A stretch of 35,023 nt of DNA from Syntrophomonadaceae bacterium. Lineage in GTDB: Bacteria > Bacillota > Syntrophomonadia > Syntrophomonadales > Syntrophomonadaceae. The notes under the pieces were generated by a model. The model saw only the letters and a list, made by a program, of their open reading frames with translations. It had not been told where the DNA came from and searched no databases. Numbering within the stretch: the stretch's first letter is position 1; each line of letters starts with the position of its first letter. Below are positions 13,829 to 17,562 of the stretch, one piece after another. Made by a program: the position numbers and the translations under genes. The stretch is taken from positions 1 to 35,023 of the forward strand of contig JAAYBS010000017.1 of assembly GCA_012718855.1 (NCBI GenBank), in the 5' to 3' direction.

Positions 13829-13857
13829 TTGACAACTATATGACCTCGCCTTATAAT
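13829..13857 (+). promoter_or_regulatory. Consensus sigmaA promoter of tRNA-Leu(CAA)
   Basis: A perfect TTGACA (13829-13834) and a perfect TATAAT (13852-13857) are separated by the ideal 17 bp. Transcription would start about 20 nt before the tRNA. Confidence 0.9.
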
Positions 13858-13884
13858 TAATTCTGCTGAAATAATAGTTTACAG

Positions 13885-13969
13885 GCCAGAGTGTCGGAAT
13901 TGGCAGACGAGCGCGACTCAAAATCGTGTGCCGTGAGGCGTGTGGGTTCGAGTCCCACCTCTGGCACCA
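13885..13969 (+). tRNA. tRNA-Leu (anticodon CAA)
   Basis: A class II tRNA with acceptor stem GCCAGAG/CTCTGGC, discriminator A and encoded CCA. The anticodon stem CGCGA/TCGTG encloses CTCAAAA, giving anticodon CAA, which reads TTG leucine codons. A long variable arm precedes a GTGGGTTCGAGTCCCAC T-arm. The overlapping ORF in the track (13891-14100) is the usual artefact of translating a Leu tRNA. Confidence 0.97.
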
Positions 13970-13979
13970 TAGGTATTAG

Positions 13980-14003
13980 AGAGGATTACAGTCCTCTTTT
14001 TTT
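13980..14003 (+). terminator. Terminator after tRNA-Leu(CAA)
   Basis: AGAGGA and TCCTCT form a 6-bp stem with a 6-nt loop followed by a run of T, 10 nt after the tRNA CCA. Confidence 0.8.
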
Positions 14004-14173: not shown

Positions 14174-14202
14174 TTGACGATTCGTTTGCTTATGTGTATT
14201 AT
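14174..14202 (+). promoter_or_regulatory. SigmaA promoter of the GntR-ABC operon
   Basis: TTGACG (14174-14179), exactly 17 bp, then TATTAT (14197-14202). It lies about 60 nt before the proposed GntR start. Confidence 0.78.
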
Positions 14203-14227
14203 GTGTACTATGAGTAGTAATACACAT
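14192..14227. promoter_or_regulatory. Palindromic operator over the GntR promoter
   Basis: ATGTGTATTA and TAATACACAT are exact inverted repeats, and between them lies a second symmetry TACTA-TGAG-TAGTA. The block covers the -10 box and the start of transcription, where binding would block initiation. Autorepression by the GntR/YtrA-type protein encoded just downstream is the natural reading. Confidence 0.65.
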
Positions 14228-14261
14228 GGGTAGGCAACTGGAAATTTAGGGGGTGATTTAA

Positions 14262-14618
14262 ATTATCAGTGTTGATTTAAAAAATCCTAAACCAATTTAT
14301 GAACAGGTACGCGATGGGATAAAGAATTTGATTATCCGCGGTGTGCTGGAGCCAGATGAGAAAATTCCTTCGGTACGGGAAATGGCACAGAATCTGGCGA
14401 TAAACCCCAATACTATTCAAAAAGCTTATCGCGATCTGGAGGTTCAGGGGTTTGTCTATCAGGTCCCCGGCAAGGGTACTTTTGTTGAGTCTCGAACGCC
14501 CGGCCAAAACCGGGAGAAGATAGAACAATTAATGATGGAGATAAAGGACAGAATTCAGGAATTAGTCTATTTAGGGGTTAGCAAAGAGGAAATTAAACAG
14601 GTGCTCGAAGACCTGTAA
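14262..14618 (+). CDS. GntR-family (YtrA subfamily) transcriptional repressor, apparent ATT start
   Basis: A 118-aa winged-helix regulator of the short YtrA subfamily, which usually represses adjacent ABC transporter genes. The conserved family opening reads ISVDLKNPKPIYEQVRDGIK, then IPSVREMAQNLAINPNTIQKAYRDLE forms the HTH and GFVYQVPGKGTFV the wing. This opening is coded in frame upstream of the track start (TTG, 14328), yet there is no ATG, GTG or TTG between it and an in-frame TAA. The only sensible initiator is ATT at 14262, six bases after AGGGGGTG. Starting at the TTG would delete the first helix. It heads an operon with an ABC ATPase 27 nt downstream. Confidence 0.85.
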   Translation: MISVDLKNPKPIYEQVRDGIKNLIIRGVLEPDEKIPSVREMAQNLAINPNTIQKAYRDLEVQGFVYQVPGKGTFVESRTPGQNREKIEQLMMEIKDRIQELVYLGVSKEEIKQVLEDL

Positions 14619-14645: not shown

Positions 14646-15539
14646 ATGATAAAAGTGCGTGGCCTAAGTAAGTCATTTGGGGACTTTCAGGCTTTACGGG
14701 ATGTAAATATTACTGTACCCAAATCCTCAGTCTATGGAATAGTAGGGCCAAATGGTTCGGGCAAGACTACCCTGATCAAGCATATTGTAGGCATATTAAT
14801 TCCTGACCGGGGTTCAGTAACAATTGGTGATATACCCGTTTATGATAACCCAATATTAAAAGAGTCCATCGCATACATACCTGATGATATTTACTTTTTC
14901 CCCCAGGCTGATTTAACTGAAATGATAAATTTTTACCGACAGGTGTATCCGAGCTTTAATGATGAGCGTTTGCAAAAGCTGATTCCGATTTTTCCTCTGG
15001 ATCATCATAGCCCGTTGCGTCGCTTTTCCCGCGGAATGAAAAAACATGCTGCTTTTATGCTGGCTTTGTGTATCATGCCCAAGGTTCTGGTCTTGGATGA
15101 ACCCATGGATGGACTGGATCCTGTAGCCCGCCGCAAAGTTTGGAGCCTTATTTTTCAGGATGTTTCCGAACGGCATACTACCGTGTTTATCTCTTCCCAT
15201 AATCTAAGGGAATTGGAGGATGTTTGCGATTGTGTTGGGATTATGCATAAGGGTGAAGTAGTATTGGAGCGTAATCTTGATGAATTGCAAAATAATATTT
15301 TCAAGCTGCAGTTGGCATTTCGCCAGGAAGTTCCGGATTTAAGCAACCTGACAGTATTGTCACAAAATCAGGTAGGCAGTGTGGTTCATCTGGTAGTCCG
15401 CGGGGAGAAAGAGCAGATTATCAGCCAGGCAGCTCAGTTGGATTCCATGATGATAGATGTGTTGCCGCTTTCGTTGGAAGAAATATTTATTCATGAGTTG
15501 GGGGGGATGGATTATGGCATCAGCAGCACCAATATTTAG
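14646..15539 (+). CDS. ABC transporter ATP-binding protein (YtrB-like)
   Basis: A 297-aa ABC ATPase. Walker A is GPNGSGKTT, the signature is the variant FSRGMKK (common in this subgroup, in place of LSGGQ), Walker B is VLVLDEPMDGLD, and the H-loop is SSHN. The ribosome-binding site GAGGAGG precedes the ATG at 14646. The C-terminal part after about residue 215 is the regulatory-like extension seen in YtrB/BcrA-type ATPases. The last 26 bases overlap the start of the permease gene, indicating translational coupling. The transported substrate is unknown; YtrA-type systems often respond to cell-wall-active compounds, but that is family knowledge only. Confidence 0.94.
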   Translation: MIKVRGLSKSFGDFQALRDVNITVPKSSVYGIVGPNGSGKTTLIKHIVGILIPDRGSVTIGDIPVYDNPILKESIAYIPDDIYFFPQADLTEMINFYRQVYPSFNDERLQKLIPIFPLDHHSPLRRFSRGMKKHAAFMLALCIMPKVLVLDEPMDGLDPVARRKVWSLIFQDVSERHTTVFISSHNLRELEDVCDCVGIMHKGEVVLERNLDELQNNIFKLQLAFRQEVPDLSNLTVLSQNQVGSVVHLVVRGEKEQIISQAAQLDSMMIDVLPLSLEEIFIHELGGMDYGISSTNI

Positions 15540-17562
15540 CCGGGCCCTTTTCAGGAAAAACCTGCAACGTTTTTGGCCTATATTTACTTCCTATATATTT
15601 ATTGTTTTGTTAATTGGTTTTAATTTAACTTATAATCGCAGATTGGCCCCGGAACTATTTACACCGCTTACACCGCAATTATTTATGGATAGGGTTTATA
15701 GCCTATCCGGTATTCTGGCCCTTGTAGTAGCATTATTCAGTATAGTAGCAGCTACAGCAGTATTTTCCTATCTGTTTAATAATTCAGCAGCGGGAATGAT
15801 GAACTCCTTGCCTTATACCCGCCGTACCATGTATTTCAGTAATTATCTGTCAGGATTGTTTATGGTTATTCTGCCCTTGTTAGTATTCTTTCTGATCCTG
15901 ACGGGAATCGGAATAGTCCATAACTGTTTGGATTTCACGGCTCTGCTGGGATGGTTGTTCATATTTGTATCCCTAAGCTTGTTGCTGTTTTCTCTGGCAG
16001 TATTTATGGCCATGCTCACCGGCAACATGATTGCCCATATCGCCTTTTATGGTATTGCCAACATCATAATATTCGGCCTGCTGATGGTTATAGATGCCTT
16101 TCTCAGCCAGTACTTATATGGTTTTACCAGCTTGTTCACCCATAGTAATTCATATATTAATGCCCTGATGAACAAGTTAACTCCGGTAATATATACTTCC
16201 GAGCTCAGTGGCACTTATACCCAGCTCAATTGGTGGGTATGGATTGCTTATTTGCTGTTCGGCATGGTTTTGATCGGGGCAGCTTTACAGATGTATAACC
16301 GGCGTAAAATGGAAAAATCCGGAGATATAATCACTATTTCCGGACTGGAGCCAATTTTTAAATACGGAGTAACTATTTGTACCAGTTTGACCCTGGGAGA
16401 AATTATATTGCATGGATTTATCAATCCCTCTTCCGGATTATTGGTTTCCTGGTTGGTATTCATCCTGGCAGGTATGCTGGGATATTATGTTGCCGAAGCA
16501 TTATTGCGAAAATCGTTTAAGGTATTGGATAGCTATAAAGGCTTTGTCGTCTATGCACTAATAATGAGCCTGGTTATTTTATCGGCCTGGTATGACTGGT
16601 ATGGATATGCTACCCGCATCCCGGATGTAAATCAGGTTGAGGTCGTAGCTTTCAGTAGTAATTATGCTTATTACCATGAAAACATTTTACAGGCTGACCA
16701 CGGTCCGGTTTATTTTGATAACCTGCCCAATCTGCCTGAATCATTGGCTTTAACTTACGGAACCCCTATTAGTCCGGAAAAAGACCCCCAGACTAATGAA
16801 TATTTGTATCCGGCCATGGCTAATCTAACCCCGGAGGAAACCCGTCTGTTATGGTCAGCGAGCCGTGGGGTTTTCTCCCAGGCTGATAGTAAAGACCAGA
16901 TTGTGGCCTTACATCAGTATATAATTGATAATATTGATGTGGTCAGAGAAAAGTACCGGACAACTATGTTTATTGATGATAATAACCGGCAGTATAATAT
17001 AACTTTCGATTACCGTTTGAAAAATGGTAAAATAATGACCTGCAGATTTCCGGTTTACTTAGCCACTAATGCTCCGGAAGCATGGGAAACCCAAATGTTA
17101 GAACAGATGGCTTCTATAGCCGGGTGTGATGAAGAGCGCCAGAAGATGATAGCCGCGCTGGATATGTCTGCTAATCAGGTTAACCGGATAGTACTTGATA
17201 GTCTGGTTTCAAATGAAGCTCTGCTTGAAAATGAATCTGATGCTATAACACCCCGGCGGTATAATGAGGCTATTGAAATACACAGCCAGGACAGAGAAGA
17301 ATTGTTGACCGCTTTAACGTGGGATTTCCGGGATATGACGAATGAGCAAATCCTTAATTCACCAGGGAAGTTTATTGCCTCTATGGAGATATCATTTGAA
17401 AGACCGCAATTACCGGTGAATAATAAGTATCGCGATGCGAAGGGTTATTGGTACGATATTGGAGTTTATCACACTCATACTATAAAGTTTCTCCGCGATA
17501 AAGGATATATTGATGAAGATATTTACCAGTATGCATTGCGAAATGTGGCAGAGAAACGATAG
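15514..17562 (+). CDS. ABC transporter permease with large C-terminal soluble domain (DUF6449-like)
   Basis: A 682-aa partner of the upstream ATPase. The first 380 or so residues contain eight to nine hydrophobic helices, starting with FWPIFTSYIFIVLLIGF and including the conserved SLPYTRRTMYFSNYLSGL loop. The last 300 residues lack membrane segments and are rich in charged and aromatic residues, so they probably lie outside the cell. The track start at 15457 is too early. The ATG at 15514 (MASAAPIF) follows GGGGGGG and overlaps the ATPase gene by 26 nt. Its arrangement resembles Firmicute permeases annotated DUF6449 in ytr-type operons; I am less sure of the exact family name than of the permease role. 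Confidence 0.85.
   Translation: MASAAPIFSRALFRKNLQRFWPIFTSYIFIVLLIGFNLTYNRRLAPELFTPLTPQLFMDRVYSLSGILALVVALFSIVAATAVFSYLFNNSAAGMMNSLPYTRRTMYFSNYLSGLFMVILPLLVFFLILTGIGIVHNCLDFTALLGWLFIFVSLSLLLFSLAVFMAMLTGNMIAHIAFYGIANIIIFGLLMVIDAFLSQYLYGFTSLFTHSNSYINALMNKLTPVIYTSELSGTYTQLNWWVWIAYLLFGMVLIGAALQMYNRRKMEKSGDIITISGLEPIFKYGVTICTSLTLGEIILHGFINPSSGLLVSWLVFILAGMLGYYVAEALLRKSFKVLDSYKGFVVYALIMSLVILSAWYDWYGYATRIPDVNQVEVVAFSSNYAYYHENILQADHGPVYFDNLPNLPESLALTYGTPISPEKDPQTNEYLYPAMANLTPEETRLLWSASRGVFSQADSKDQIVALHQYIIDNIDVVREKYRTTMFIDDNNRQYNITFDYRLKNGKIMTCRFPVYLATNAPEAWETQMLEQMASIAGCDEERQKMIAALDMSANQVNRIVLDSLVSNEALLENESDAITPRRYNEAIEIHSQDREELLTALTWDFRDMTNEQILNSPGKFIASMEISFERPQLPVNNKYRDAKGYWYDIGVYHTHTIKFLRDKGYIDEDIYQYALRNVAEKR

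Follow-up and report, generated by a model that had tools for sequence, protein, structure and literature searches.

A 35,023-nt stretch of DNA from a Syntrophomonadaceae bacterium (the window) carries a ytrA-like gene whose reading frame continues 5′ of its first canonical start codon, which raises the question of where its translation begins. The initial annotation had proposed initiation at ATT. Indeed, the frame is open from an ATT codon, preceded directly and in frame by TAA, and runs uninterrupted up to a stop at 14616-14618. The sequence around this position reads TTTAGGGGGTGATTTAA, then ATT ATC AGT GTT GAT (coordinates are given in the feature table). When an ORF caller is limited to canonical starts it picks the TTG at codon 23, as had been anticipated, and the beginning of the GntR domain is lost; further canonical starts follow in frame at codon 28 (GTG) and codon 41 (ATG). 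The window is contig 180 of a draft genome (2.09 Mb, 231 contigs, 83% complete).

Features of the ytrA locus, in window coordinates
Feature	Position	Strand	Basis or remark
Predicted sigma-A promoter of ytrA (TTGACG, 17 nt, TATTAT)	14174-14202	+	10/12 matches
Putative YtrA-type operator, GTGTACTA-N7-TAATACAC, 23-bp palindrome	14203-14225	.	Directly downstream of the -10 box
Extended Shine-Dalgarno, AGGGGGTGAT	14248-14257	+	Complementary to the 16S 3′ end, GGATCACCTCCTTTCT
In-frame TAA abutting the ytrA start	14259-14261	+	Sequence
Probable ATT start codon of ytrA	14262-14264	+	ATT/ATC in 9/9 genomes at the aligned codon
ytrA-like GntR repressor (predicted), 118 aa	14262-14618	+	Open frame; Pfam GntR at residues 13-75
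TTG, ytrA codon 23, gene-finder choice	14328-14330	+	Starting here removes residues 1-22, including the beginning of the GntR domain
ABC transporter ATP-binding protein, next operon gene	14646-15539	+	ORF and family match
Probable membrane subunit of the same transporter	15457-17562	+	Position of the whole ORF, whose true start probably lies further in

The protein read from the ATT matches the N-terminal GntR winged-helix family (PF00392) with 62.4 bits, and the 43 residues that follow this domain are in keeping with the C-terminal part of YtrA proteins, which is short (about 40-50 residues). Its best solved relative is Lmo2241 (4ham), which aligns over residues 3-116. YtrA regulators are usually encoded in operons with ABC transporters and their operators are long palindromes (PMC4494728). 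The window gene shares the GntR domain, the short C-terminal part, the ABC transporter operon and a long palindrome with GT/AC far from its centre. The ORF of the probable membrane subunit gave no NCBIfam match. These sequence features mark the gene product as a GntR repressor of the YtrA subfamily, for which DNA binding and repression are predicted. The gene differs from other members in its start, since most of the homologues examined start with ATG and the window gene has ATT.

The unusual codon recurs in relatives. In nine genomes from five genera of the same family, the ytrA orthologue has ATT (five genomes: the window, G034, also sampled as L033, G073, G030 and G023) or ATC (four genomes: G019, G012, G062 and G061) at the aligned codon, and none has ATG, GTG or TTG. 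This settles whether orthologues carry ATG or ATT here, which the initial annotation had raised as a check. Orthologues were found in genera g12, g19, g21 and g23 at 65-73% identity; the ATT of G034/L033 comes from a cultured isolate, Syntrophomonas wolfei subsp. methylbutyratica JCM 14075, and the ninth copy (G073) is clipped by a contig end and was detected via its ribosome-binding site. Homologues outside this ATT/ATC (ATY) group mostly have ATG at the aligned codon and some have GTG or TTG, the latter also in the nearest outside row of the tree (G008). The ATY sequences cluster as one group (support 81/94) when 40 homologues are placed in a tree. Since they form a single clade, they count as one origin that was retained and not as nine independent events, and a single origin of the ATY start, kept since, would be the simplest account. 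Close orthologues were not found in G001 (same genus, 80% complete) or in G021 (single contig, genus g21), so that the operon looks patchily distributed, and a search of viral contigs for related loci returned none.

Conservation in these genomes switches on at the ATY codon. Among the nine leaders, pairwise identity in columns -3 to -1 was 0.58, 0.25 and 0.58, and in the three positions of codon 1 it was 1.0, 1.0 and 0.44. Codons 1 and 2 share the same pattern, with positions 1 and 2 invariant and position 3 variable. At codon -1 the window has a stop (TAA), and the other genomes encode Ile, Asn, Thr or Pro. Because the columns before codon 1 are unconserved and a coding pattern sets in from codon 1, the ytrA product most likely begins there.

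The ribosome-binding site is placed for the same codon. The initial annotation had described a Shine-Dalgarno of AGGGGGTG, which is present, but the match is longer and extends to AGGGGGTGAT; two genomes of the family, G012 and G021, were confirmed to have the complementary 16S 3′ end. All nine leaders contain GGTGAT, and in each of them 8 nt separate the GG[A/G]GG core from the ATY codon. Pairing with the anti-Shine-Dalgarno is stronger for the ATY genes than for their ATG homologues, with mean duplex energies of -19.4 and -15.8 kcal/mol, respectively (one-sided Mann-Whitney test; P = 0.0003, indicative only as the sequences are related). Together with the conserved ATT/ATC, the onset of conservation and the preceding TAA, the position of the Shine-Dalgarno supports the ATT as a start that looks real and maintained.

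In the relatives, translation could begin upstream. All eight of them have an open in-frame GTG at -9, and G061 has an additional ATG at -6. If the relatives start at this GTG, which lies in the Shine-Dalgarno and is the likely pick of annotation pipelines, their proteins would begin M-I-x-I-I-S, the ATY would be an internal Ile codon and the ATT of the window would be a late, poor substitute left by the mutation to TAA. The alternation of ATT and ATC at codon 1 is what an internal Ile codon would also be expected to display. In the window genome itself the in-frame TAA rules out the GTG as a start. For the relatives, the GTG is embedded in the extended Shine-Dalgarno and lacks a separate one: when a spacing of 4 nt or more between Shine-Dalgarno and start was required, pairing energies were -0.6 to -5.8 kcal/mol for the GTG compared with -15.9 to -18.2 kcal/mol for the ATY codon. 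Furthermore, codon -1 is variable whereas conservation starts at codon 1, and it is with codon 1, not with the GTG, that the ATG of homologues aligns. The window gene is also otherwise intact, with operator and operon conserved. We consider an upstream GTG start improbable.

Still less credible is a window protein of 96 aa that begins at the TTG, even though this is the first canonical in-frame start. Its Shine-Dalgarno is poor (-6.2 compared with -15.9 kcal/mol at the ATT), the TTG at codon 23 is unconserved, and initiation there would shorten the match to the GntR profile by ten positions at its beginning (12-64 instead of 2-64) and remove a stretch that is conserved in solved relatives, for example 4ham and 6sbs. 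An error that hides a real ATG, conceivable in a fragmented draft, or a pseudogene is refuted on comparative grounds as the source of the shared ATT/ATC, and chance is likewise excluded, since the codon is repeated in eight other assemblies, one of them from an isolate, and frame, operator, promoter and Shine-Dalgarno are all intact.

Upstream of the probable ATT start, the relatives have TTGACA, 17 nt and TATTAT arranged as in the predicted ytrA promoter of the window. Promoter-like matches comparable to it arise about twice per shuffled region, and its placement therefore rests on this conservation. The putative operator overlaps the predicted transcription start. Its pattern has one match in the window even when two mismatches are allowed (0.02 expected), it is the single site in the window genome, and of seven other genomes scanned, five have one site each, always upstream of ytrA. 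With one site only, placed over the predicted transcription start of its own gene, the repressor would need few copies.

Other leader elements were considered. RNA structure that masks the ytrA start was rejected, since the leader folds no better than shuffled sequences (z = -0.28), and an Rfam search returned nothing besides tRNA. A seven-codon upstream ORF (ATG 14226 to TAG 14247) was attributed to chance, as it has no Shine-Dalgarno and no same-frame counterpart in G034. Further upstream, region 13829-13999 contains a tRNA-Leu (CAA) gene at 13885-13969; a promoter that matches the consensus perfectly (TTGACA-17-TATAAT) stands before it and a terminator-like hairpin (13978-13999) after it.

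We think it very likely that ytrA encodes an autoregulated repressor with a single target, and that its translation is limited by a conserved near-cognate start, which the extended Shine-Dalgarno rescues. In this scheme, the AUU would be read with formyl-Met, and the strong pairing of AGGGGGUGAU would place it in the P site and partly offset the poor codon-anticodon match. The weak start would keep YtrA scarce, low abundance would suffice for a protein that acts on one operator at its own promoter, and scarcity could permit quick derepression of the downstream ABC transporter operon. We infer initiation at AUU, its low yield, autorepression and a physiological benefit; that the weak start lowers the repressor level would fit both reporter data from S. 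aureus (PMC13009471) and the autoregulated single-operator arrangement. A further idea, which we hold to be doubtful, is that the AUU/AUC start makes the YtrA level track initiation conditions (IF3 level or activity, nutrients), much as ccpN is reported to respond to growth medium, such that less near-cognate initiation would derepress the operon. If so, the repressor would sense the state of the translation machinery via its own start codon.

Candidate near-cognate starts also occur at other loci. In a family-wide scan for GGAGGTGAT-N3-6-ATY, 60 sites were read and the matches mostly fall within other genes. A second candidate lies in L132:415-927 (G019:C69:13399-13911), where GGAGGTGATTAACT and then ATT open a 171-aa ORF with no canonical start nearby and no Pfam match; its homologues have ATA (L180, G041) or ATG (L179, G075) at the aligned codon. 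On the minus strand of L166 (G062:C114), near 414, a gene resembling PAS/sigma-54 activators has GGAGGTGATCGCA followed by ATT, with an in-frame GTG within the Shine-Dalgarno, an ambiguity that it shares with ytrA of the relatives. In L134 (G034:C5:100130-100146), GGAGGTGATTTGCT followed by ATT opens a 103-aa frame without an upstream canonical start.

As a positive control for near-cognate starts in the family that carries ytrA, we read infC, which begins with ATT or ATC before AGY-AAR (Ser-Lys) in 29 of 29 genomes from the family, order and phylum. ATT and ATC exchange frequently in these genes, and their Shine-Dalgarnos are mostly of the GGAGGTGA type. Since infC is uniformly ATT/ATC, initiation at ATY codons is normal in these organisms. 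Like ytrA, infC has a long-conserved near-cognate start in which ATT and ATC alternate within one family; AUU, AUC and AUA starts are known for infC, and ATT and ATC are found here for ytrA. The infC gene is regulated through the discrimination of IF3 itself against near-cognate starts, whereas ytrA has no known link to IF3.

To our knowledge, only a handful of bacterial genes other than infC have a known conserved near-cognate start, because gene finders do not search for such codons. From its sequence, ytrA is a further case of a known type, a conserved near-cognate start with an extended Shine-Dalgarno, here on a repressor. Comparison makes the case clear, in a syntrophic lineage in which both ATT and ATC are used, and such regulators probably carry wrongly annotated N-termini throughout the family.

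In poor medium, S. aureus ccpN (AUA), cvfC1 (AUU) and citZ (AUA) are expressed at about 10% of the level given by AUG, and in rich medium ccpN reaches up to 30% (PMC13009471). Extended Shine-Dalgarnos accompany ccpN, cvfC1 and infC (PMC13009471). Both ccpN of S. aureus and B. subtilis (AUA) and staphylococcal cvfC1 (AUU) thus resemble ytrA in combining a conserved AUH start with a strong extended Shine-Dalgarno (PMC13009471), and ytrA would extend this rule to another Firmicutes class. As predicted for YtrA, CcpN is a transcriptional repressor, and ribosomes of the low-GC Gram-positive type are common to both systems. Unlike ytrA, ccpN and cvfC1 belong to other protein families and another lineage; ytrA, in turn, has either ATT or ATC and is predicted to control its own operon via one operator. 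In E. coli, the AUU start of pcnB limits expression (Binns and Masters 2002, as cited in PMC13009471), an effect shown for pcnB and proposed here for ytrA, although pcnB is an enterobacterial enzyme gene and not a repressor. The GTG start of E. coli lacI lowers the repressor level and benefits the cell in context (PMC11445065); this too is a weak start on a repressor gene, but GTG is a standard alternative start whereas the ytrA codon is ignored by ordinary gene finders. Together, ccpN and cvfC1 are the closest precedent for the ytrA start, and the GTG of LacI is a looser parallel.
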